From positions 1-64,000 of the forward strand of contig NZ_JANUXN010000009.1 in NCBI RefSeq assembly GCF_025699485.1: 64,000 nucleotides of DNA. The letters run 5' to 3'. Both the position numbers and the translations under genes were made by a program. The DNA comes from Thauera carbonicopians (GTDB taxonomy: Bacteria > Pseudomonadota > Gammaproteobacteria > Burkholderiales > Rhodocyclaceae). The first letter of the stretch is position 1; the number at the start of each line of letters is the position of its first letter. The notes beneath the pieces are model-generated. The model searched no databases and had not been told where the DNA came from. It was given only the letters and a program-made list of their open reading frames with translations. Below are positions 11,399-22,137 of this stretch, piece after piece.

Positions 11399-12037
11399 CT
11401 ACAGACTCGCGCACACGGTATAGCTGATGCCGTCGTCCAGCGGAGCCGAACCGGAGACCGGCGTGAGCGAGCCGGTGCCGCTGTCGATGCCGGCCCGCAT
11501 CGAGCCCGTCGCCGGATCACCGTCGTCCAGTGCCAGGTCGAGCTGGCGCACGAGTTTGCCCAGGATGCCGCCCGAGCAGGTCAGGACGCTGCCGCGAAGG
11601 CCGAGCAGGCTGCCGCTCTGCACGCCGAGCCGGCCGCCGACCGTGTTGCGCGGCAGGTAGCCGGCATTGCCGGTGTCGCTGCTGCCGGTGGCGAGGCCGG
11701 CGAGGCGCACGTGCTGCCAGAAGCGGAATGCGTCGCTGTCGGCGTCGTCGTTCCAGTTGCCGTCGATCGTGCCGTTGCCGTTGCCCGCGCTGGTGCAGTC
11801 GTCGCCGCTCGGGCACAGGTGCAGGCGGGCACGGGCATCGTCGCCCGGCAGCGCGCGGAAGCGGTCCTGGTAGGCGTGGGCCAGGGCCGGCAGGCTGCGG
11901 AAATCCTGGGCCAGATTCTTGACCTTGGCGCTGTCGATCAGCTCCTGGCCCTTGAGCACGCCGCCCAGCAGCAGACTGACGATCAGCAGGACGACGGCGA
12001 TTTCCACGAGGGTGAAGCCTTGTTGATGGGGTTTCAT
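11399..12037 (-). CDS. Prepilin-type protein with class III N-terminal cleavage motif
   Basis: Pilin-like protein of 212 residues, the last gene of the MSHA-like locus. The short basic leader MKPHQQG is followed by FTLVEIAVVLLIVSLLLGG, the canonical prepilin peptidase site (cleavage after Gly, Glu at +5) and hydrophobic assembly helix. The rest, with KVKNLAQDFRSLPALAHAYQDRFRALPGDD, resembles the major-pilin/pseudopilin style in which alpha1 leads into an ALPGDD loop. A cysteine pair in CPSGDDC may form a disulfide. AGGAGG precedes the chosen ATG. It may be the main pilus subunit of this locus (inference). Confidence 0.8.
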   Translation of the reverse strand: MKPHQQGFTLVEIAVVLLIVSLLLGGVLKGQELIDSAKVKNLAQDFRSLPALAHAYQDRFRALPGDDARARLHLCPSGDDCTSAGNGNGTIDGNWNDDADSDAFRFWQHVRLAGLATGSSDTGNAGYLPRNTVGGRLGVQSGSLLGLRGSVLTCSGGILGKLVRQLDLALDDGDPATGSMRAGIDSGTGSLTPVSGSAPLDDGISYTVCASL

Positions 12038-12110
12038 CGGTATTGCCTCCTTGTTGCGTGGGTGGAAAAAGTGGGGCCGGCCATCCGGGGGACGGCCATC
12101 CGGGGCCGCC

Positions 12111-12827
12111 TCACAGGCGGCCCGCCTGGGCAAGGCGGGCGATCAGCAGCGGACGCCCGATCCAGACCAGGATGTCGTCGAAGTCGGCGGTCGGTTCGCC
12201 GGCCTGGTAGGTCGGGCCGGTGGCGGAATAGGTGGCGTTGAGGCCGTCGGCGCGGCGATTGGCGCCGGTCGAGAACACGATCGCGACGGCCTGGGAGTCG
12301 CTGACCGTGATGCGGCGGCCGTCGTGCGCGTGGATCTGGAGATTGCTGGCCGGCACGCTCGCGGCAGTGATGAGCTGGTCGCTGAAGCTGCGGTCGACCC
12401 GATAGCGCCAGTGGCCTTGCCAGGGGGCGTCGGCGCTGACGCGCGTGCTGCCCCAGGCGTCGGTGGCGGGCATGCCCAGCGTGCGCCAGGGCAGCAGGCC
12501 TTCGGTGGCGGTGTTGCAGGGTGGCGGCGCTTCCTGGCCGTAGTCCGGATGGGCCGGGTCCGCTTCGATGCTGGGGCAGGGCAGGCGGCCGTGGATGATG
12601 GCGAAACCGGTCAACGCTTGCTGGATGTCGCGCAGGCGGTCCAGCGTCGCCTGGCGGTCACGGGCTTCGATGCGGCTGGCGAGTGGGACCAGCATGCTGC
12701 CGGACAGCAGCGCGAGGATGATCAGCACGACGGCGAGTTCGGCCAGCGTGAAGCCGCTCTGGCGGCACGGGGGTGGTGGGCGCATGCCGGCGGCCGCGAA
12801 GCGGGTGGGAGGACTCAACTCAGGCAT
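12111..12827 (-). CDS. Prepilin-like protein with LPCP/LPWRTLG ectodomain
   Basis: Protein of 238 residues. An unusually long leader ends RQSG, then FTLAELAVVLIILALLSGS, a class III prepilin signal with Glu at +5. The ectodomain carries GRLPCPS, GLLPWRTLGMPATDAWG, VAIVFSTGANRR and DDILVWIG, all with counterparts in the neighbouring upstream gene, so the two are paralogues. Start chosen at the ATG overlapping the upstream gene by 13 bases, with AGGA nine bases before it. An ATG 14 codons later (base 12785) would give a more usual leader length. It is probably a minor pilin (inference). Confidence 0.75.
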   Translation of the reverse strand: MPELSPPTRFAAAGMRPPPPCRQSGFTLAELAVVLIILALLSGSMLVPLASRIEARDRQATLDRLRDIQQALTGFAIIHGRLPCPSIEADPAHPDYGQEAPPPCNTATEGLLPWRTLGMPATDAWGSTRVSADAPWQGHWRYRVDRSFSDQLITAASVPASNLQIHAHDGRRITVSDSQAVAIVFSTGANRRADGLNATYSATGPTYQAGEPTADFDDILVWIGRPLLIARLAQAGRL

Positions 12828-14047
12828 CGGACGACATCCTGGCTGGCGGGGCGATGCGGATCGGTGATGCGGAATCCGGCAGTGCCGTGGAATTCCGCGA
12901 TGCCGAGCAGGAAATGGCGGGGATTGTCGCCTTCGAGGTATTGCGCGACATCGGCCCGTTCGGCCGCCGTGCCGCGCCGCTGGCGCCCGTCGCCGCTGCG
13001 GATCCGTTCGCCGCCGAACAGCAGTACCGCGCGGCAGCTTGCGGTGTGCGGCAGCTCCGGATCGATCACGGTGATGCAGTCGCTGTCGTCCTTGCACAGG
13101 GCGACCTGGAACTGGTCGCGCCAGTTGTCGTGGGCACTGCCGGCGGGCGCGGCGATTCCGAGTTCCGAGGCGGCGGCGAGCCTGCCCGTCAGCAACTGGC
13201 CATGCGGCGTCTCGTGCAGATGGCGGGCGACGAAATCCGCGTCGGTGAGCCGCGAGGCCAGGTGCAGTGCGGCAGTCTCGCCGATGTGGTCGATGCGCGG
13301 GGCGAAGTCGCTGCGCCGGCGCAGCGCATCGTAGATGTCGTCGATGCCCAGCCAGGTGATCAGGTCGTTGCGGATGGTGCTGCCGACCTGGCCCTGATGG
13401 ATGTCCGATATCGCGATGGATGGCAGATCGCTGCCGGCCTCGATGAAATCACCGGCCTCGTTCAAGCTGGTGCCGGCCGTGCAAGGCGCGTGGCCGGCGC
13501 CGTGGCGGCGCTGGCCGTCGAGGGCGGGGCCGGGGGCGAACACGACGGCGATGGCAAGGCCGTCCGGCGAAGCGGCAGGCAGGCTGTGGCCGTCGCCGCG
13601 CCACAGCCTGAACTGCCCCGGGCTGTCCCAGTTGAGTGCGAGCGGCTTCGGGTTGTGCTTGACGCTGCCGGACACCGTGTACCACAGGCATTCGCCCCAG
13701 CCGTCCTGCAGTTGCGGCAGGGCCAGGGTCCGCCATGGCAGCCGGCCGGCGGCGACGCCGCCGCGGGGGCCGCAGGCACCGAGTGCCGTCGAGCCGGTGT
13801 TGCCGGTGTCCGGGCAGGGCAGGTAGCCCTGGCCCTGGCCTGCGTGGCTTTCGTCATAGCTGATCGCATAGCCGAGCAGGGCTTCGCGCGCCTGCGAAAG
13901 CGCCGCGATGCTGCGGGCCTGGGCACGGGTGCGGAAGCGGGCATCGAGTTCGCCGTGGGCGAGCAATCCGCCGGCACCGAGCAGGATGGCGAGCGCAAGG
14001 GCGGCGACCAGGCCGTGGCCGGCGGCTTTCACGCGGGCGGGCTTCAT
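12815..14047 (-). CDS. Large prepilin-like protein lacking the canonical cleavage motif
   Basis: Protein of 410 residues with a single N-terminal hydrophobic segment (about residues 13-32, LVAALALAILLGAGGLLAHG). The G-FTLxE prepilin signal is missing. Downstream, SQAREALLGYAISYDE, GYLPCPD, GRLPWRTLALPQLQDGWG, AIAVVFAPG and NDLITWLG parallel the next gene's ectodomain, with a longer C-terminal extension containing several cysteines. It may be a non-processed minor pilin or tip-associated protein (inference). The start overlaps the preceding stop by four bases. Confidence 0.65.
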   Translation of the reverse strand: MKPARVKAAGHGLVAALALAILLGAGGLLAHGELDARFRTRAQARSIAALSQAREALLGYAISYDESHAGQGQGYLPCPDTGNTGSTALGACGPRGGVAAGRLPWRTLALPQLQDGWGECLWYTVSGSVKHNPKPLALNWDSPGQFRLWRGDGHSLPAASPDGLAIAVVFAPGPALDGQRRHGAGHAPCTAGTSLNEAGDFIEAGSDLPSIAISDIHQGQVGSTIRNDLITWLGIDDIYDALRRRSDFAPRIDHIGETAALHLASRLTDADFVARHLHETPHGQLLTGRLAAASELGIAAPAGSAHDNWRDQFQVALCKDDSDCITVIDPELPHTASCRAVLLFGGERIRSGDGRQRRGTAAERADVAQYLEGDNPRHFLLGIAEFHGTAGFRITDPHRPASQDVVRCLS

Positions 14048-14532
14048 TCCGGTCGCCCCTGAGAAGTGTCCGGCGCCGCCTGCCAGCTGTCGCCGGTGCG
14101 CAGGCGCTGGCGAGGGGCGTGCACCGGGATCAGTTCCAGCGCCGGGAAGGGCGCGGCACGCAGGCCCGCCGGCAGCGGGCCGGGCACACCGTCCAGCCAC
14201 AGTGTCGTGTCGCCGTTCGAATGGCGCAGGAAGCCGTCGATGCGCCGGGGCGCTGCGCTCGGGGGGCTCGCCGACATGGCGGTTTTGGGGGGAGGCGCCG
14301 GCGGTGGAGGCTGATCCAGCGCGCGGCGCTCGCCGGGCGTGAAGAACAGGCGACCGAACGCGCCATCGGCGGGCTGGGCGATCGCTGGTGGATTGCCGCG
14401 GGTCTGCGCCATGGCTGGGGCCGCTGCCGCCAGCGTGCAAGCGAGCAGCGCAAGCAGGCCGCGCCGTGACCGCTGCGCGGCGCATGCGCACGGCGCGGGG
14501 CGAAGCCGGGCGGGTGTCCTGGCCGGCATCAT
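14044..14532 (-). CDS. Small exported protein, MshK-like position
   Basis: Protein of 162 residues with an N-terminal signal peptide (hydrophobic core LLALLACTLAAAAPAMA) followed by a proline-rich linker of about 20 residues and a compact C-terminal domain with GDTTLWLDGVPGPLPAG. Its size, export signal and position after the PilO-like gene match MshK-type components of MSHA pilus loci, but no clear sequence motif confirms this. Two adjacent ATG codons are possible starts. The first overlaps the upstream stop. Confidence 0.55.
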   Translation of the reverse strand: MMPARTPARLRPAPCACAAQRSRRGLLALLACTLAAAAPAMAQTRGNPPAIAQPADGAFGRLFFTPGERRALDQPPPPAPPPKTAMSASPPSAAPRRIDGFLRHSNGDTTLWLDGVPGPLPAGLRAAPFPALELIPVHAPRQRLRTGDSWQAAPDTSQGRPE

Positions 14533-15128
14533 CTTGCGCCCGTGCCGGACGGCAGCGAAATCGTCAGCCAGTCGAGCCGGCAGCGTGCGTGCACGCGTCC
14601 GGCCGTGCCGCCGTCGAGGCGGTTCAGCGTGCAGCTGCGCGGCAGCACAAGCGCGCCGGGGACGGCGGCCAGGGTGGCGATCAGCACCGGCAGCCGGCCT
14701 TCATGCTGCAGCGGGGTGTCGATCTCCAGGGTGTGGACGAGAATGTGCGGTGCATCCGGATCCGCCCCACCGGCCACCGGCCGAGGCGGCGTGAATTGTA
14801 GTTCCTTGCCGGCGAGGCCTTGCCGTTCGAGGCTGCGGGCGGCTTGGGCGGCCCATGCCGTGGCGGCGGGCGGCTGCATCGCGCCGAGTGCGGCGAGGGC
14901 GTTCCAGTGTTCGAGCGCGGCATCCAGCTCGGGCTGCTGCAGTCGCAGCGCGTCCAGCTCGGTGGCGAGGCGGGCGTGCTGGCGCTGTGTTGCCGCCAGC
15001 CTTGCCAGGGCTTCGTCGCGCGCGCCGGTCGAGGCGACGAGAGCGCCGATGCCGCCTGCGGCAAACCCTGCGGCAAGCAGCAGCGCGGCGATGCTGCGGG
15101 TGTCGATGGTGAGCGGCGTGGCTTTCAT
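14529..15128 (-). CDS. PilO/MshJ-like inner-membrane assembly protein
   Basis: Protein of 199 residues with one N-terminal transmembrane segment (about residues 13-33), then a coiled-coil-like region (ATQRQHARLATELDALRLQQ) and a small alpha/beta domain. This architecture and its place directly after the PilM/PilN-like gene match PilO/MshJ, which dimerises with PilN to link the cytoplasmic ATPase platform to the secretin. ATGA overlap with the preceding gene. Confidence 0.65.
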   Translation of the reverse strand: MKATPLTIDTRSIAALLLAAGFAAGGIGALVASTGARDEALARLAATQRQHARLATELDALRLQQPELDAALEHWNALAALGAMQPPAATAWAAQAARSLERQGLAGKELQFTPPRPVAGGADPDAPHILVHTLEIDTPLQHEGRLPVLIATLAAVPGALVLPRSCTLNRLDGGTAGRVHARCRLDWLTISLPSGTGAR

Positions 15129-16522
15129 CGCGGCTGCACCTGGACGGGCTTCGGTGTCAGCAGCAGTTCGAGCTGCGTATCGCCGCCGGCATCGGCGCGT
15201 GTATCGATGAGCCGCGCACCGCGCCTGGCGAGATGGGCGACGATGGCTTCGATTGCTGCGTACGCGTTGGTGCCGGCAGCGGACGAGAGATTCATCCTGA
15301 CGCGGACGAGCGCAGGCTCGGCGCCTGCAGGGGCAGGCGACCATTCCAGGGCCTGCAGCGCGAGCCCGGGCGCGTGGTCCAGGCTGTCCGCGATTGGGCG
15401 AAGAACGTCCAGCGGCATGATGGCCGTGCCTCTTTCGTTCGCGACCAGCCGGATGGTGTCGATGATGCGGGCGGGCGGCGCATCGAGTCCGGCGTGGGCG
15501 GCCGTCAGCTCCGTCAGTTCGTGCTGCAGGCGGGCGGTTTCGCGTTGCAGTGCGGCACGGCTTTCCTCGGTGCCTCGCGCCGCCTGCCAGTGCATGGCGG
15601 CGATGCCGGTGCCGCCGGCGAACAACAGCACGCCGGCGCCGAAGGCCAGCTTGCGGACGTGGCGCAGCGGAAATGCCGCGTCCGGCGAGGGGCCGGGCCA
15701 GCCGAGCTTGCGTGGGGCGCGTGCCAGCCAGGCCAGCAGTAGCTCGCTGCTGTCGGTGATGTGAATGGAATCGGCGCCGAGCGGATCGAGGGGGTGTAGC
15801 TGGACTTCGGTCGCGTGGGCGGGGCCGGCGGTGAGCAGGACGACCTGGAGGTGCCCGCCGGGATCTTCGGTGGCAGCTTCGCCTGCCTGCAGTTGCAGCT
15901 TGTTCGCGTACTGCAGCGTGCGTTCGATCTCGTGCTGCCACTCGGCGCGGGTGGGGTCGTCATCGGCGCCGGAGCCGATGTGTTCCACCAGTCGTGACAG
16001 CCGCGTGGCATGCCCGGCGACCAGTGTCAGGCGCATGCCGGCGCGGCTGCGGCAAACGATCAGCCGAGCCGGGCCGGGCAGCGCATGGGCGATCAGTTCG
16101 CTGGCCGGCACCAGCCGCTCGCAACTGCATCCCGCGCGGCGCAGGGCGCTCGCCCAGACATCGACACCGGCTGGCCGGGCGAGGCCGCTGAACAGGATCT
16201 GCTCGGTATCGGCCTTGCGGTCGATGGCCAGGGTGTCGGCCCTGGCATAGCAGGCTTGCGGATACCAGGCGGCGAGGCGGCGGCCGATCAGGGCGCGGCG
16301 GTCGGCGCCGCGGGTGCGCGGCAGGGTTTCGGTTTCGTGGCATTCGTCGGCCAGGTCCACCAGCATGCGGTAGCGGGTCTTGCCGGGCTGGCCGCGGAGC
16401 CAGTCGGTGAATGCGCTCTGCTCGCCGGTGGCGAAGCCGGCGAGGCGGGCCAGCGGGCGTTTGCCGGCCTGGAATGCTTCGAGGCCGAGAGCGTCGATGC
16501 GGAGCAGGATGGTGTTCGGCAT
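15125..16522 (-). CDS. PilM/PilN-like (MshI/GspL-type) pilus assembly protein
   Basis: Protein of 465 residues. The N-terminal cytoplasmic part (about 1-285) is likely a diverged actin-like PilM/GspL fold. A single transmembrane helix follows (about 290-310, AFGAGVLLFAGGTGIAAMHW), then a coiled coil (LQRETARLQHELTELTAAHA) and a PilN-like ferredoxin-type periplasmic domain. It therefore appears to combine PilM and PilN roles in one chain, as MshI and GspL do. Assignment rests on architecture and neighbours, since motifs are weak. It overlaps the next gene by four bases. Confidence 0.65.
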   Translation of the reverse strand: MPNTILLRIDALGLEAFQAGKRPLARLAGFATGEQSAFTDWLRGQPGKTRYRMLVDLADECHETETLPRTRGADRRALIGRRLAAWYPQACYARADTLAIDRKADTEQILFSGLARPAGVDVWASALRRAGCSCERLVPASELIAHALPGPARLIVCRSRAGMRLTLVAGHATRLSRLVEHIGSGADDDPTRAEWQHEIERTLQYANKLQLQAGEAATEDPGGHLQVVLLTAGPAHATEVQLHPLDPLGADSIHITDSSELLLAWLARAPRKLGWPGPSPDAAFPLRHVRKLAFGAGVLLFAGGTGIAAMHWQAARGTEESRAALQRETARLQHELTELTAAHAGLDAPPARIIDTIRLVANERGTAIMPLDVLRPIADSLDHAPGLALQALEWSPAPAGAEPALVRVRMNLSSAAGTNAYAAIEAIVAHLARRGARLIDTRADAGGDTQLELLLTPKPVQVQPR

Positions 16523-16535
16523 GGCGGGCTCCGCG

Positions 16536-17738
16536 TCAGGTCGGGAGGCGGGTGATGATGTCGTAGATGGGGCCGAGCACTGCGCTGGCGATCCACAGCA
16601 GCAGCGCGCCCATGGCCAGCGTCAGCAAGGGTTCGATGGCGGCTTGCAGGCGAGCGGTGGCGTCGGCGACGTCGCGCCGGTAGAGCGCGGCGACGTTGCC
16701 GAGGGCGCGATCCAGCCCGCCGGTCTGTTCGCCCACCCTGAGCATGCGTTCGACCAGCGGCGGGAACAGGCCGGTCGCTTCGAAGGCGGCCGAGACCGCG
16801 TAGCCTTGCTCGATACGCCCGGTGGCCGTGTGCAGGGCCTTGCGCAGGGCCAGATTGCCGGTGATGTCCTGGGTGATGCGCAGCGCGTCGATGATCGTGA
16901 TGCCGGCGGCGTAGAGCGTCGCCAGCACGCTGGCGAAGCGGGCGAGCGTGAGTTTGGTGAGGATCTCGCCGGCGACGGGGAGCCGCAGCAGCAGGTGGTG
17001 CAGGCGGGTGCGGGCGGCATCGGAGCGTGCCAGGAACCCGCGCACGCCGGCCAGCCCGATGGCGATGCCGGCCGGCAGCAGCCAGCCGGCCTGCGTCACC
17101 GCATGCGACAGGCCGATCAGCAGGCGGGTCTGCAGCGGCAGGGTCTGGCCGCTGCTGAGGAACAGCTTTTCCAGTTCGGGGACGACGTGCACCAGGGCGA
17201 CGACCACGGCGAGCAGCATCAGGCTGGCGACGATGGCCGGATAGATGGCGATGCGGCGGGCGTAATTGGCCAGTTCGTCTTCGTGTTCGAGCGCCGCGCC
17301 GATGTCGCGGATGGTCTCGGGCAGGCGGCCGGCCTGTTCGCCGGCGCGCAGCAGGGCGACGGTGGCGGGCGGAAACACGCCGGGCTGGCGGGCGGCGGCA
17401 GCGGACAGCGGCTGGCCGCGCTCGATGTCGGCAAGCAGGGTGATGACCGCCGTGCGCATGCGCGGATGGGTGGTGGCGTCGCGCAATGCGGCGAGGCTTT
17501 CGAAAGGCGGCACGCCGGCGGCCAGCAATTGCTCGAGGTGGAAGCAGAAATGGATCAGCTCCCGGCGCGGTACCCGTTTGCTGCCCGGCAGGCTCAGGCT
17601 GAGTCTGGCTTCGCCGTTGATGAAGGCGAGGCCTTGTTCCCGCAGCCGGCTTTCCAGGTCGGCGAGATCGGCCGCATCCAGCCGGCCGCGCAGCAGGCGG
17701 CCGTCGGCGCTCATGGCGCGGTAGCTGTAGGTTTTCAT
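16536..17738 (-). CDS. Type II secretion/type IV pilus inner-membrane platform protein (GspF/MshG family)
   Basis: Polytopic platform protein that couples ATPase motion to pilin insertion. It is 400 residues, the family norm. Two GspF domains are seen (about 65-190 and 270-390), each with hallmark segments: FHLEQLLAAGVPPFESL, LLRAGEQAGRLPETI, then FASVLATLYAAGITIIDAL and MLRVGEQTGGLDRAL. Three membrane segments are visible. The ATG shares one base with the stop of the ATPase gene, so the pair is translationally coupled. Confidence 0.88.
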   Translation of the reverse strand: MKTYSYRAMSADGRLLRGRLDAADLADLESRLREQGLAFINGEARLSLSLPGSKRVPRRELIHFCFHLEQLLAAGVPPFESLAALRDATTHPRMRTAVITLLADIERGQPLSAAAARQPGVFPPATVALLRAGEQAGRLPETIRDIGAALEHEDELANYARRIAIYPAIVASLMLLAVVVALVHVVPELEKLFLSSGQTLPLQTRLLIGLSHAVTQAGWLLPAGIAIGLAGVRGFLARSDAARTRLHHLLLRLPVAGEILTKLTLARFASVLATLYAAGITIIDALRITQDITGNLALRKALHTATGRIEQGYAVSAAFEATGLFPPLVERMLRVGEQTGGLDRALGNVAALYRRDVADATARLQAAIEPLLTLAMGALLLWIASAVLGPIYDIITRLPT

Positions 17739-19441
17739 CAGGCGTGCTCCACTTGGGTGGCGAGGCCGTCGAGAGCGACGACGCGGGCCAGTTCGGCCAG
17801 CGAGGTGCTGCCGTCCAGCACCCGGCGTAGGCCGTCGTCGGCGAGGCCGGCATGGCCGCGGCGGCGCAGCAGGGGCCGCAGCACGCCGGGGCGGGCACCG
17901 GCGCCGATCTGCTCGTCGAGCTCTTCGTCGATGTGCAGCAATTCCATGATCGCGATGCGGCCGCGGTAGCCGCGGAACTCGCATTCGGCGCAGCCGGACG
18001 GGGAGAACAGTGCCGGTGGCCGTTCGGCAGGCAGGCCGAGCAGGCGGCATTCGGCCGGCGATGCGGGGGCCTCGATCCGGCAATGCGGGCACAGCCGCCG
18101 CACCAGGCGCTGGGCAATGATGCCCGACAGGTTGCCGGCCAGCAGGTCGGCGCGCAGGCCGATGTCGAGCAGGCGCGGGATGGCACCGAGCGCGGAGTTG
18201 GCGTGCAGCGTGGCGAACACCTGGTGGCCGGTGAGCGCGGCGCGCAGCGCCATCTGTGCGGTATCGGCGTCGCGGATCTCGCCGATCAGCAGGATGTCCG
18301 GATCCTGGCGCAGCAGCGCGCGGACACCGTCGGCGAAACCGAGGCGGCTGGCGTCGCCGATCGGGGTCTGGCGGATCTGGGCGAGCGGGTATTCCACCGG
18401 ATCCTCCAGCGTCATGATGTTGACCGCTTCGGTGTTGAGGTGGTTGAGGATCGAATACAGCGTCGTCGTCTTGCCGCTGCCGGTGGGGCCGGTGACGAGG
18501 ATCAGGCCTTCCGGGCGGGACAGCATGCGGTCGAGCGTGTTGTGCTGAGCGTCGCTGAGCCCGAGCGCATCGAGCGGCACGATGCCTTTTTCGCGGTCGA
18601 GGATGCGCAGCACGATGTTTTCGCCGTGCAGCGTGGGCTGGGTGGCGACGCGGAAGTCGATCGGCCGCCCGGCGACGGCCAGCGAGATGCGGCCGTCCTG
18701 CGGGCAGCGCGATTCGGCGATGTCGAGCCCGGCCATGACCTTGAGGCGTACCGCCAGTTCGGGCCAGAAGGATTTGTGCAGGGCACGGACCTGGCGCAGC
18801 GTGCCGTCGATGCGCAGGCGGATGCGCAGATAGCCGGCTTCGGGTTCGAAATGGAGGTCGGAGGCACGGCTGGCGACGGCCTCGGCCAGCATCGCGTCGA
18901 CCAGGCGGACCACGGCCGGGCCGTCTTCTCGGCTGCCTGCGGGGGCATGGCCGGAGCTGCGCTGCTCGATCTCGCGGACGATGTCGTCGATGGTGACAGC
19001 CTGGCCGTAGTGGCGCTCGATGGCGCGTTCGAGCTGGACGTCGGCGGCGACCCGCAGTTCGAGGCGGGTGCCGGGGCCGAGTTCGGCATGCAGGCGGTCG
19101 AGGGCGACGACATTGCCGGCGTCGGCGATGGCGACGACCAGGGTGCGCTCGGCAGCGCGGTATTCCAGCGGCAGCAGTCTGTGGCGCCTGGCGAGCGCCT
19201 GGGGCACGAGCGACAGTGCGGCGGGGTCGGCCAGGGTGTTGGCGAGATCGACGCTGGGGTGGCCGCAATGGGCGGCGAGGGCATCGCGCAGCGCGGTATC
19301 GCTGACGAAGCCGAGTTCGACCAGTACCTGGCCGAGCGGGCGTTTGCGCTGCTGCTGTTCGTGCAGCGCGATGCGCAACTGGTCGGCGCCGATCAGGCGG
19401 GCGTCGAGCAGGAGCTGGCCGATCGGCAGGGCGGCGTTCAT
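17738..19441 (-). CDS. Pilus/secretion assembly ATPase (GspE/PilB/MshE family)
   Basis: Hexameric motor that powers pilin polymerisation. It is 567 residues. The N-terminal MshEN-like domain (about 1-90) has two 24-residue-style repeats beginning IGQLLLDARLIG and LGQVLVELGFVS. The ATPase core has Walker A GPTGSGKTTTLYSIL, an Asp box, Walker B DILLIGEIRDADTAQMA and the His box GHQVFATLHANSA. A zinc site is indicated by CPHC and CAEC. The arginine that precedes the first LG in c-di-GMP-binding MshEN domains appears replaced by proline. The start overlaps the secretin stop (ATGA). Confidence 0.9.
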   Translation of the reverse strand: MNAALPIGQLLLDARLIGADQLRIALHEQQQRKRPLGQVLVELGFVSDTALRDALAAHCGHPSVDLANTLADPAALSLVPQALARRHRLLPLEYRAAERTLVVAIADAGNVVALDRLHAELGPGTRLELRVAADVQLERAIERHYGQAVTIDDIVREIEQRSSGHAPAGSREDGPAVVRLVDAMLAEAVASRASDLHFEPEAGYLRIRLRIDGTLRQVRALHKSFWPELAVRLKVMAGLDIAESRCPQDGRISLAVAGRPIDFRVATQPTLHGENIVLRILDREKGIVPLDALGLSDAQHNTLDRMLSRPEGLILVTGPTGSGKTTTLYSILNHLNTEAVNIMTLEDPVEYPLAQIRQTPIGDASRLGFADGVRALLRQDPDILLIGEIRDADTAQMALRAALTGHQVFATLHANSALGAIPRLLDIGLRADLLAGNLSGIIAQRLVRRLCPHCRIEAPASPAECRLLGLPAERPPALFSPSGCAECEFRGYRGRIAIMELLHIDEELDEQIGAGARPGVLRPLLRRRGHAGLADDGLRRVLDGSTSLAELARVVALDGLATQVEHA

Positions 19442-21132
19442 GGGCGGAGCTCCGTTTCGCTGGCGTCGTGGCTCGGCACCAGCAGCGGGCGCATCGGCAT
19501 CGACGGGAAGTTGCGCCGGCCGGGCGAAGGCCGGGAGACGAGGAAGTCCGGTCCGGGAAGCTGGTCGGCATAGCCGGCGTAGTTGCCGCGGGTGCTCGGG
19601 TCGTCGATCAGCAGCGGCCGCAGGAAGATCAGCAACTCGGTGCGGCGCACGGTATTGTCGCGGCGGGTGAACAGCTCGCCCAGCACCGGGATGTCGCCCA
19701 GTAGCGGAATGCGGCCGGTGTCGTGGTCCACGCGGTCTTCCATCAGGCCGCCGAGCACGGCGATCTCGCCGCTGCGCAGGCGCAGCATCGATTCGATCTC
19801 GCGGGTGCGGATCTGCGGCACGCGGTTGGGGATGTCGCGCAGCGAAGGATTGGGGTCGTCGCGGAAACCGGAAATCCCGGAGACGGTCGGCCGCACGTTC
19901 AGCGTGATCTCGCCGCTGGCACTGATCTGCGGCGTCACCGACATCACCATGCCGACCGAGACCGACTGGGGCGTCGTCGTCGCGGTGACCTTCTCGCGCT
20001 CGCTGTCGCCGTATTCGGTGGTGGTGGCATCGACGAGGAAGTAAACGTATTCCTCGACCACCTTGAGCATCGCGGTTTGATTGTTGAGCACCGACAGGCG
20101 TGGGCTCGAGAGCACCTTGACGGTACCGAAGGTTTCCAGCAGCTCGAGCCTGAAATCGGTGTCGGCCGAAGCGTAGCTCAGGGTCGGCGCGCCGCTGCCG
20201 GCGCTGCTGCGCGGGCTGATGTTCCAGCCGGGCAGGCCGAGGCGGCTCCAGTCGATGCCCTGGACGTAGCCATCGGCCAGCGTGACCTCGACGATGGTGG
20301 CTTCGATCATGACCTGCCGGCGGGCGGCGCGCTGGACCTGATCGATGAAGGCGGCGAGCTGTTCGTGCTGGCGGGCCGTGGCCCGCACCATGACGATGCC
20401 GCTCTCCCTGTTGACCATGATGTCGCCGTCGCGGCAGTCGTCGCCCTTGCCGGCGCAGCGGGACGGGCCTGTTGCGCCGTCGTCGAGGATGGCGCGGATG
20501 TTGGCCTGGATCGACTGCCAGAAATCGTTGCTCGAACGGGTTTCGATCTGGGTCACGGAGGTGTTGCCGGCGGCGTCGCCATGATTGCCTGCGCTGCTGG
20601 AACTGGTGGAGATCTGCGTGCTGGTGGCGACGGTGCCGCGCATGCTGCGGCTCAGGTTGACGTAATCGAGCGTGTAGCTGCGCAGGAACGGCGTATCCGG
20701 CCGCACGCTGAGATGGCTGCCGGCGATCTCGTAGCGGATCGGTGCCTGGCGGGCGATGCGGGCGAGGATCTCGCCGAGCGGCTGGTCGATGGCGTTGAGG
20801 GTGACGCGGCCGTCGATGCCGCCGTACAGGTCGAGGTCGAGCCGGGCGTCGCGGCCGATCGCCAGCAGCAACTGGTGGACGGGGATGTCGTGTACCGAGA
20901 TCGAATAGGTTTTTTCGCGCCTGGCCGGCACAGCCGGTGCCGGCGCTTCGGTAGATGCGGGGAGAGGAGGCTCGGTAACTGCGGGCGGCGGGTCCGCGCT
21001 CACCGCCGGCGGCTGCGGGGCGGAGAGGTGGCCGGCCGGCGCCCGGTGAACGCCGAGTTGCGTGCATGCGCCCAGCAGCACGACGAATGCAAATGACATT
21101 GGCGAGAGGGCGATGGAGGCTCGGCGGCTCAT
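19438..21132 (-). CDS. Pilus secretin, MshL-like lipoprotein
   Basis: Outer-membrane secretin through which the pilus or pseudopilus passes. It is 564 residues. The N-terminus has a lipobox (VVLLGACTQ), then a proline-rich linker, an STN/N0-type domain (HDIPVHQLLLAIGRDARLDL), an NDFWQSIQANIRAIL segment typical of MshL, and the C-terminal secretin domain with SSPRLSVLNNQTAMLKV and RSGEIAVLGGLMEDR. It is the first gene of the nine-gene minus-strand locus. The AGGAG at about 21170 is too far from the ATG to serve it, so translation initiation looks weak or atypical. Confidence 0.85.
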   Translation of the reverse strand: MSRRASIALSPMSFAFVVLLGACTQLGVHRAPAGHLSAPQPPAVSADPPPAVTEPPLPASTEAPAPAVPARREKTYSISVHDIPVHQLLLAIGRDARLDLDLYGGIDGRVTLNAIDQPLGEILARIARQAPIRYEIAGSHLSVRPDTPFLRSYTLDYVNLSRSMRGTVATSTQISTSSSSAGNHGDAAGNTSVTQIETRSSNDFWQSIQANIRAILDDGATGPSRCAGKGDDCRDGDIMVNRESGIVMVRATARQHEQLAAFIDQVQRAARRQVMIEATIVEVTLADGYVQGIDWSRLGLPGWNISPRSSAGSGAPTLSYASADTDFRLELLETFGTVKVLSSPRLSVLNNQTAMLKVVEEYVYFLVDATTTEYGDSEREKVTATTTPQSVSVGMVMSVTPQISASGEITLNVRPTVSGISGFRDDPNPSLRDIPNRVPQIRTREIESMLRLRSGEIAVLGGLMEDRVDHDTGRIPLLGDIPVLGELFTRRDNTVRRTELLIFLRPLLIDDPSTRGNYAGYADQLPGPDFLVSRPSPGRRNFPSMPMRPLLVPSHDASETELRP

Positions 21133-21152
21133 GCACTCATGCTAGATGAATT

Positions 21153-21181
21153 TATGACATAAGAAAATACTCCTATGACAT
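21153..21181. promoter_or_regulatory. Direct repeat TATGACAT between the pilus locus and mlaF
   Basis: Two exact copies of TATGACAT (21153-21160 and 21174-21181) are spaced 21 bp start to start, two helical turns, in the AT-rich island that must carry the promoter of the minus-strand pilus locus. Candidate regulator binding site. Confidence 0.35.
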
Positions 21182-21278
21182 TTTTCGATGCCGCCGCGGG
21201 GGCGCGATCGCGGGCCCAGCATGGGGTAACGGACTGTTGCATTGCGACAAATTGCCGGGAAGCGGTGCCCGCCTCTGC

Positions 21279-21284
21279 TAGAAT
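21279..21284 (+). promoter_or_regulatory. Candidate -10 element of the mla operon
   Basis: TAGAAT followed by a G-rich start region. It predicts transcription from about 21291, just ahead of the chosen GTG of mlaF, and argues against the in-frame ATG at 21283 that overlaps it. Confidence 0.45.
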
Positions 21285-21315
21285 GCGCGGTTCTCGAACA
21301 AAAGAATCTGCTTTC

Positions 21316-22137
21316 GTGGCCCCTGCAGCCGAGCGCGATGCGCCTCTCGTTTCCCTTCGCGACGTCCGTTTCGCCTATGGCGAGCGGTCGGTGCTGCGCG
21401 GCATCGACCTGGAGGTGCATCGCGGCCAGGTGGTGGCGATCATGGGCGGCAGCGGTTGCGGCAAGACCACCTTGCTGAGGCTGATCGGCGGCCAGTTGAA
21501 GGCGAATGCGGGGGCGGTGGAAGTCGCCGGCCATGAAGTCGGCAAGCTCGGCGGAGCCGAGCTCTATGCGATGCGCCGGCGCATGGGCATGCTGTTCCAG
21601 TTCGGCGCGCTGTTCACCGACATGAGCGTGTTCGACAACGTCGCCTTTCCGTTGCGCGAGCACACCGACCTGCCGCCAGGCATGATTCGCGACCTGGTGC
21701 TGATGAAGCTGCAGGCGGTGGGGCTGCGTGGTGCGGCCTCGCTGCGGCCGGGCGAGCTGTCGGGCGGCATGGCGCGGCGGGTGGCGCTGGCGCGCGCGGT
21801 GGCGCTCGACCCGATGCTGATCCTCTACGACGAGCCTTTCGCCGGGCTGGACCCGATCTCGCTCGGCATCATCGGCCAGTTGATCCGGCGCCTGAACGAT
21901 GCGCTCGGCGCCAGTTCGGTGATGGTCACGCACGACGTGCATGAATCGCTGGAGATCGTGGACTACATCTACTTCGTGTCGGAAGGGCGCATCGTCGCGC
22001 AAGGCACGCCGGACGAGATCCGCGCCTCGACCGACCCCTTCGTCCACCAGTTCGTCAATGCCGAGGCCGACGGCCCGGTGCCCTTCCATTATCCGGCGCC
22101 GCCGATCGACAGCCTGCTGGGCGGGAGGAGCGCATGA
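21316..22137 (+). CDS. mlaF: Phospholipid ABC transporter ATP-binding protein MlaF
   Basis: Cytoplasmic ATPase of the MlaFEDB complex that moves phospholipids between the two envelope membranes and keeps the outer leaflet asymmetric. It is 273 residues from GTG. Walker A is MGGSGCGKTTLL, the signature LSGGMARRVALARA and Walker B LILYDEPFAGLD. A C-terminal tail after about residue 240 is typical of MlaF. The GTG was chosen because an upstream ATG overlaps the likely -10 box. It overlaps mlaE by four bases. Confidence 0.92.
   Translation: MAPAAERDAPLVSLRDVRFAYGERSVLRGIDLEVHRGQVVAIMGGSGCGKTTLLRLIGGQLKANAGAVEVAGHEVGKLGGAELYAMRRRMGMLFQFGALFTDMSVFDNVAFPLREHTDLPPGMIRDLVLMKLQAVGLRGAASLRPGELSGGMARRVALARAVALDPMLILYDEPFAGLDPISLGIIGQLIRRLNDALGASSVMVTHDVHESLEIVDYIYFVSEGRIVAQGTPDEIRASTDPFVHQFVNAEADGPVPFHYPAPPIDSLLGGRSA

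Follow-up and report, generated by a model that had tools for sequence, protein, structure and literature searches.

Introduction

Among the closest known relatives of the gene cluster reported here are the mannose-sensitive haemagglutinin (MSHA) pili of Vibrio. In V. cholerae, the ATPase MshE extends MSHA pili under cyclic di-GMP (c-di-GMP; PMC7096442) and the pili are retracted by a shared PilT (PMC9815625). A published model for detecting MSH loci treats mshA, mshE, mshG, mshL and mshM as mandatory genes, of which at least three are required, and its authors report all MSH loci to be without a peptidase gene (Denise et al. 2019, PMC6668835), while the gain of MshN has been described as a mark of the MSHA lineage (Pelicic 2023, PMC10191384). 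The latter review omits MSHA from its component table as too poorly characterised, and its passages on MSHA describe no test of the role of MshM or MshN. Here we analyse a nine-gene cluster in a 64,000-nucleotide stretch of the Thauera carbonicopians genome (the window: positions 1-64000 of contig NZ_JANUXN010000009.1, our C48; genome size 4.52 Mb in 48 contigs). The cluster probably encodes a reduced MSHA-like type 4 pilus. Its likely ancestor is a gene cluster of Betaproteobacteria that also held MshM, MshN, a response regulator of sigma-54 type, a cyclase and a kinase, none of which is left in the Thauera-Azoarcus lineage.

A compact locus compared with MSHA

Like the MSHA loci of Vibrio and relatives, the Thauera cluster gathers an MshL-like secretin, an MshE-type ATPase with a c-di-GMP domain, a platform protein and an inner-membrane complex in a single locus that holds neither a peptidase nor PilT. 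It differs in having no MshM, no MshN and a single PilM/PilN-type protein, and also in its gene order and pilin set when set against what we take to be the canonical order, which is seen as well in loci L204-L209 and L211 of other genera. Nine genes run along the minus strand from 21132 to 11399, by reading of open reading frames (ORFs) and by gene calling, in the order g1 (secretin), g2 (ATPase), g3 (platform), g4 (465 aa), g5 (199 aa), g6 (162 aa), g7 (410 aa), and the prepilins g8 and g9:

19438..21132, minus strand: g1, MshL-like secretin, 564 aa (Pfam Secretin 1e-40, Secretin_N_2 6e-7; top NCBIfam model MshL)
17738..19441, minus strand: g2, MshE-like extension ATPase with c-di-GMP-type MshEN domain, 567 aa (T2SSE 7e-123, MshEN 5e-14; start by gene calling)
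16536..17738, minus strand: g3, MshG/PilC/GspF-type platform protein, 400 aa (T2SSF 2e-46)
15125..16522, minus strand: g4, MshI-position protein, 465 aa, with a predicted PilM/GspL-like cytoplasmic domain, long helix and PilN-like C-terminal domain (AlphaFold2 and Foldseek)
14529..15128, minus strand: g5, PilO/MshJ-position protein, 199 aa (named by position)
14044..14532, minus strand: g6, MshK-position protein, 162 aa (position and conserved core)
12815..14047, minus strand: g7, minor-pilin-like protein without Glu5, 410 aa, with a 57-residue N-terminal helix and large head (AlphaFold2)
12111..12827, minus strand: g8, prepilin, 238 aa (N_methyl 5e-6)
11399..12037, minus strand: g9, prepilin and candidate major pilin, 212 aa (N_methyl 3e-7; dN/dS)
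21133..21315, no strand: spacer separating g1 from the divergent flank, taken as the probable promoter region (gene calling)

The single-strand, nine-gene cluster proposed in a first-pass annotation is therefore real, all ORFs being open and the domain matches lying far beyond chance. Adjacent genes overlap by 4 bp at g1/g2 (g2 start at 19441), 1 bp at g2/g3, 4 bp at each of g4/g5, g5/g6 and g6/g7, and 13 bp at g7/g8, with a 73-bp gap at g8/g9; these junctions are as first annotated, except that the gap between g3 and g4 is 13 bp rather than 14 bp. None of the nine genes is mshM, mshN, a peptidase or PilT, in line with the same annotation. The secretin carries a lipobox-like LLGAC near its N-terminus, and no Pfam family matched g4, g5, g6 or g7 at E 0.1.

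Family scores and phylogeny of the ATPase

The MshEN domain of g2 reached 52.6 bits on PF05157 (cut-off, 23.1) and 57.5 bits on the c-di-GMP motif model NF053729 (cut-off, 38), and g3 scored 157.7 bits on T2SSF, as expected of an MshG-type platform. Scores for the type II secretion system (T2SS) fell under the cut-offs for both g1 on GspD (156.6 versus 351.35) and g2 on GspE (494 versus 630.25), as did those for the type IVa pilus (T4aP), with g2 at 486.5 versus 675.65 on the PilB equivalog and g1 at 121.5 versus 284.35 on PilQ. In a tree of ATPases, the lineage of g2 formed its own clade (support, 100/100), apart from PilB, from GspE and from the ATPases that belong to another MSHA-like locus, with canonical gene order, in other members of the family; the placement of L142 and L163 was unstable.

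The absence of a peptidase gene from the locus would be normal for an MSHA locus and is not odd, because the same is reported for all MSH loci (PMC6668835). Since MshM and MshN are absent, also after a search of its own genome, the locus is not placed in MSHA proper; we file it as MSHA-like, a reduced sister form, which might still be detected by the MSH model of Denise et al. It shares with type II secretion a homologous ATPase, platform and secretin as well as the GspL-like g4, but scores under the T2SS cut-offs in a genome that has separate T2SS genes. With the T4aP of its own genome it probably shares the peptidase and PilT/U, whereas PilB, PilMNOP and PilQ are separate and the g2 ATPase belongs to another clade.

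Loss of the c-di-GMP motif from g2 was considered and rejected, the MshEN domain being over its cut-offs. The arginine of the first MshEN motif, which we take to be canonical, was found in 2 of 17 aligned ATPase rows (L050, a Thauera, and L082), and its absence does not separate full from reduced forms.

Genome-wide search for the missing parts

We searched whole genomes with profiles of MshM and MshN. Of the candidates from the first look a subset was scored, up to 26 in each genome for MshM and up to 33 for MshN; results for the secretin and MshN use the best score per genome among the matches listed. Outside Thauera, the MshM profile matched at 385-709 bits beside the secretin, with the match of G036 lying on another contig, and one genome (G040) had the secretin and MshN but no MshM match. 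Across 29 Thauera genomes the best MshM score was 222 bits, and four genomes had no match at all; the one exception, G023, gave 307 bits from a sequence with three stops beside a secretin fragment, in a genome with 8% contamination. No MshM was found by this search in the window genome, where the sole match (208 bits) is the ATPase of an XrtA/PEP-CTERM system, which scores 424 bits on TIGR03015. MshN behaved similarly: proteins next to a secretin scored 171-375 bits in genomes outside Thauera, and no Thauera gave more than 60 bits, from partial tetratricopeptide repeat (TPR) matches; the profile search found no MshN in the window genome (best E 3.4e-7).

The machinery that the locus would have to share is encoded elsewhere, as the first-pass annotation had suggested for the peptidase. 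The window genome has one prepilin peptidase (C43, near PilB), PilT/PilU-family genes on C10 and C11, and PilMNOP with PilQ on C8, along with GspE and GspD over their cut-offs on C45 and C46, respectively.

Full form in relatives and direction of change

Of the 28 other Thauera genomes, 27 have the g1-type secretin, each with a score of at least 657 bits, and g4 was detected in 25, with G020 and G024 among those that gave no match. The one genome of the 29 without a secretin is G028 (10 contigs, 100% complete), which keeps PilO. In other genera of the family and order, and among named contigs (the best 80 of 561 relatives), an MshM-like AAA_22 protein usually lies upstream of the secretin; three of these proteins were tested, and two gave a weak SPOR match. 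The stretch from secretin to ATPase usually holds an MshN-like TPR protein. Relatives have about thirteen genes for this machine, compared with nine in the window, and Methyloversatilis (L141) is one example with both MshM and MshN. Across 108 tabulated loci, 60 had both MshM and MshN, 30 had neither, 8 had MshN only and 10 were ambiguous for one gene; L079 was excluded from the synteny counts, the gene caller, trained on the high-GC window genome, having failed there. Spacing between secretin and ATPase follows the same division, from -4 to +21 bp in Thauera versus at least 895 bp in MshN-bearing loci, the exception being L163, a second and divergent copy in which the distance is 485 bp and the MshN match is weak. 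Three further kinds of gene lie in or beside the full-form cluster: an adenylate/guanylate cyclase and a sigma-54-type (NtrC-type) regulator, each tested in three cases, and a histidine-kinase-type ATPase, tested in two. A receiver domain was present in two of the three regulators.

A similar cluster has been reported before under another name. The 2009 account of Dechloromonas aromatica lists a 'pulDEFG + exeA' cluster with a kinase, an adenylate cyclase and a glnG-like regulator, just before a toluene-resistance cluster, and files it under type II secretion (PMC2907700). We equate the two on gene content rather than on sequence, the published cluster being a full-length form of the Thauera locus, and a similar arrangement occurs in Dechloromonas and Azonexus loci (L108 and L122). 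It differs from the Thauera locus in holding an exeA/MshM-like ATPase and linked regulators, and in being filed as type II secretion, not MSHA.

In a mixture-model tree of the ATPase and platform (40 rows, 964 columns), Thauera, Parazoarcus/Azoarcus and one Zoogloea row formed a single clade (100/99); the Zoogloea row has no MshN, and its MshM position lies beyond the contig end. This reduced clade adjoins Zoogloeaceae rows with both genes. MshN changed state three times on this tree, and on a quick tree of 83 rows (from 102 usable loci) MshN changed five times and MshM four times. A second loss of MshN occurred in Zoogloeaceae of termite-gut type, near relatives of which keep MshN and show no MshM. 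Loss is the most likely origin of the compact state, because the reduced form is nested among full forms and the full form is widespread. The first-pass annotation had suggested that the locus may be reduced, and the linked MshM and MshN of relatives in other genera, with the compact form nested among them, bear this out. It had also held that finding the missing genes linked in relatives would speak against its description; relatives do have them, but Thauera does not.

The secretin of the reduced lineage

For T2SS, the secretin is described as having two sites of action: its N-terminal region for the ExeAB complex and its C-terminal S-domain for pilotins (PMC6532946). By analogy, we infer that MshM and MshN are secretin assembly factors. 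Judged from its gene content, the g1 lineage appears to have no relative of either known type of assembly factor, the TPR pilotin or the ExeA-like ATPase.

The secretin itself differs along with these genes. The linker between two of its periplasmic N-domains has a median length of 89 residues (range, 45-110) in 60 rows with MshM and MshN versus 38.5 (31-58) in 30 rows with neither, of which 23 are Thauera, including two second records of the same genomes; four of the 112 secretin rows were too short for this table. At least two linker cysteines were found in 23 of the 30 rows with neither gene versus 3 of the 60 with both. A REA(A/S)-type motif before the next secretin domain was seen where both genes are present (47 of 60 rows) and where MshN alone is (7 of 8), but in none of the 30 rows with neither; of 5 rows that lack MshN and in which MshM could not be read, 3 carry the motif. 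A cysteine pair sits in the shortened linker of g1-type secretins in most Thauera and Azoarcus-type rows.

Structural and sequence relations of g4 to g7

An AlphaFold2 model of g4, built from 42 aligned sequences (mean pLDDT, 86.2; pTM, 0.63), matched the EpsL/GspL cytoplasmic domain 1yf5 (2.9e-9) and PilM 5eq6_B (7.6e-9) in Foldseek, with a probability of 1.00, and also a chain of a T4aP machine model (8.6e-4). TM-scores to 1yf5 and 5eq6_B were 0.33 and 0.29 by whole model and 0.56 and 0.36 by target; beyond the cytoplasmic domain, the model continues into a long helix and then a small alpha/beta domain. The model thus supports g4 as a PilM/PilN-type protein like GspL.

For g5, solved structures in the PDB gave coiled-coil or chance matches only, and it did not match the genome's own T4aP PilO taken as a single sequence; g6 likewise gave only such matches, with no relative in the PDB, and did not match the genome's own T4aP PilP taken as a single sequence, although most of 20 aligned relatives share a conserved core (R-x-DG ... 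W-[IL]-[ND]-G ... GD). The labels PilO-like for g5 and MshK-like for g6 are given by position only. Alignment of g4, g5 and g6 profiles with T4aP PilM, PilN, PilO and PilP in hhalign gave no signal, but single-sequence templates make this a weak test, which also missed the structure-supported relation of g4 to PilM. The first-pass reading of the three proteins is thereby upheld for the 465-residue PilM/PilN but not confirmed for the 199-residue PilO and the 162-residue MshK.

The model of g7 (mean pLDDT, 88.5) has a helix at residues 11-67 (57 residues) followed by a large beta-rich head. No solved structure matched it at E <= 0.001 in Foldseek, the best row of a second look at structural matches aligned 35 residues of the helix (Z, 3.0), and sequence searches against solved structures gave coiled-coil or chance matches only. 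The model is consistent with a minor pilin without Glu5. Lengths of g7 are about 390-470 aa in Thauera and from about 300 to more than 1,100 aa in other genera (for example, L074:3737-6967, L077 and L081), where the long forms could carry tip adhesin domains, with no Pfam family matched.

A seven-gene form in one Thauera subclade

Further reduction is seen within Thauera. In 12 genomes no g5 was found, the PilN-like domain is gone and the PilM-like part of g4 is joined to the g6 core, leaving seven genes (L049, L051, L053/L086, L055, L057, L058, L059, L060, L213, L214, L217 and L222). A g6 profile matched 13 of 104 g4 proteins (from 12 genomes, one of them in two collections) with independent E-values from 2.5e-8 down to 1.4e-18; at a threshold of 0.01, the remaining 91 gave no match. 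Conversely, a profile of the PilN-like domain matched all 86 long, split-type g4 proteins, which are its own building set, versus none of the 13 fused ones, and neither this profile nor that of g5 matched anything else in the fused loci. The spacing between g4 and g7 in eight fused genomes was -4 bp in six and 56 and 113 bp in the others.

The fused forms fall in one clade of 14 rows (100/100; two rows of unclear form), with one change on the tree, and the fusion appears from these sequences to have arisen once. Overall, the 29 Thauera genomes comprise 13 with the split form, including that of the window and T. linaloolentis 47Lol (L044/L084), 12 with the fused form, among them Thauera sp. 28 (L086), 3 cut by contig ends and 1 without the locus. 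The cut loci end after g3 (G020), within g2 (G024) and within g4 (G005), with G005 and G020 inside the fused clade on the tree; among split forms, the gene caller gave no g6 in G021 or in G007, and in G007 a search in six frames recovered it. Values of dN/dS ranged from 0.03 to 0.65 over all genes and pairs and were mostly below 0.5, with g4 and g5 highest (0.29-0.65). Those of g9 were 0.05-0.37 in five pairs, and those of the fused form were 0.11-0.50, plus 0.21-0.52 in one pair.

Proposed function and alternatives

By analogy with V. cholerae, the locus most likely encodes a c-di-GMP-gated adhesive pilus with shared PilD and PilT, and a similar cycle of extension and retraction would be expected because the MshEN domain and PilT/U are shared. 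The chromosomal shared peptidase would process the prepilins, of which g9 would be the polymerised pilin, with g7 and g8 priming or capping the filament. At high c-di-GMP, g2 would extend the filament together with g3, which would form the inner-membrane platform with g4-g6; the filament would exit through g1 and be retracted by PilT/U. The g1-type secretin would reach and assemble in the outer membrane without the MshN pilotin and the MshM peptidoglycan factor, using its own lipid anchor or a general factor.

Several observations weigh against a reduced MSHA-like pilus. The secretin scores 232.1 bits on the MshL model TIGR02519, under the cut-off of 250.2, and of five homologues at 234-254 bits, four are under the cut-off and one is over; the whole secretin lineage would thus sit at the edge of the MshL family. 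The deep join of the g2 clade with canonical-order MSHA ATPases is weak (82/83), in a group that holds other ATPases too, and the tree roots are midpoints, with loss read from the trees rather than computed. The g3 of G012 is in two pieces (L049), and the aligned secretins of G012, G013, G019 and G025 have one stop each; these may reflect sequencing error, alignment into the flank or decay. The association of linker length with gene loss is descriptive only, given few independent losses: there were five independent pairs for MshN (on average 1.0 in the same way and 0.4 opposite) and four for MshM (2.1 and 0.0), short of the 0.05 level. Finally, a lipobox gained to offset loss of the pilotin was rejected, the pattern being about equally frequent with MshM and MshN (56 of 60 rows) and with neither (26 of 30).

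One alternative is compatible with a reduced MSHA-like pilus and differs in how its gaps are filled, with borrowed parts (PilN/PilO and the pilotin of the T4aP, or the XrtA-associated ATPase) replacing MshN, MshM and, in the seven-gene lineage, PilN/PilO. A search of ten Thauera genomes, of which eight carry the fused form, found one PilO over the cut-off in each, and the window genome encodes an ExeA-like ATPase belonging to the XrtA system. We nevertheless regard borrowing as rather unlikely: the losses are clean and common to whole clades, the secretin differs along with them, and there is no sign of cross-talk.

The main rival, a dedicated protein-secretion pseudopilus with a periplasmic filament and a secretin that exports substrate, is considerably less probable. 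The first-pass annotation had raised it, and it has little positive support. The GspL-like g4 does match EpsL first, though with PilM close behind; T2SS and MSH are both described as derived from T4aP (PMC6668835), and the Dechloromonas aromatica relative, so called by gene content, is listed under type II secretion (PMC2907700). Against this stand GspD and GspE scores far under their cut-offs (157 versus 351 and 494 versus 630), the T2SS genes that the genome already owns (GspE on C45, GspD on C46) and the MshEN domain of the ATPase. A decaying relic is most improbable: gene loss is progressive along the lineage, the secretin is gone in G028, g3 of G012 is split and four secretins have a stop in the aligned stretch, but dN/dS in the pairs compared is mostly below 0.5 in nine- and seven-gene forms alike (g4 and g5 highest, 0.29-0.65), and of the eight fused loci whose g4-g7 junction was measured, six show a 4-bp overlap formed anew.

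For the reduced MSHA-like pilus, a broader proposition can be put forward tentatively, with somewhat less than even confidence. Thauera and its kin may build a surface pilus in which the secretin is assembled without a factor of either the pilotin type (MshN) or the ExeA type (MshM). One Thauera subclade may do so with seven genes, having deleted the PilN-like domain along with the PilO-position gene and linked its PilM-like part by a single membrane helix directly to the MshK-position domain. If true, this would give the T4aP/MSHA/T2SS branch a secretin-bearing filament that lacks its own PilN-PilO scaffold, and a natural test of which machine parts are indispensable. A lineage in which the loss of both genes can be mapped stepwise on a tree, with matching differences in the secretin, would make an assembly role of MshM and MshN directly testable, and the seven-gene form, with its PilM-MshK-position fusion and no PilN/PilO partner in the locus, would be a natural minimal machine in an environmental genus. 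Among the matches listed, no paper on the reduced form was found in the open-licence literature on MSHA in Betaproteobacteria, Thauera, Azoarcus or Rhodocyclales, on MshM/MshN and MshI-K, or on gene fusions of PilM, PilN and PilO.

Flanking genes and other loci

The divergent flank upstream of g1 starts at 21316 by gene calling, and a simple pattern search of 21133..21315 found no sigma-54 site upstream of g1. The window had no match in a plasmid collection, as a test of plasmid origin. Genes bordering the locus in the window are presumably mla, kdsD and lpt. In the Thauera loci inspected, the divergent upstream neighbours are those of the window (which we take to be mla), and the other end mostly adjoins genes of what we presume to be kdsD-lptC type or a Na/H antiporter (one tested by Pfam, L045).

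A second secretin locus is present in L204-L209 and L211, all from other genera, in a canonical-MSHA-like order: genes of PilM, PilN and PilO size, a secretin, an MshM of about 270-320 aa and often an MshN-like gene. The only trace of this locus seen in Thauera is a stop-containing fragment in G023. In Duganella/Pseudoduganella (L138, L143, L147, L152 and L156), a divergent ATPase-platform-pilin cluster stands head to head with the MSHA-like locus.

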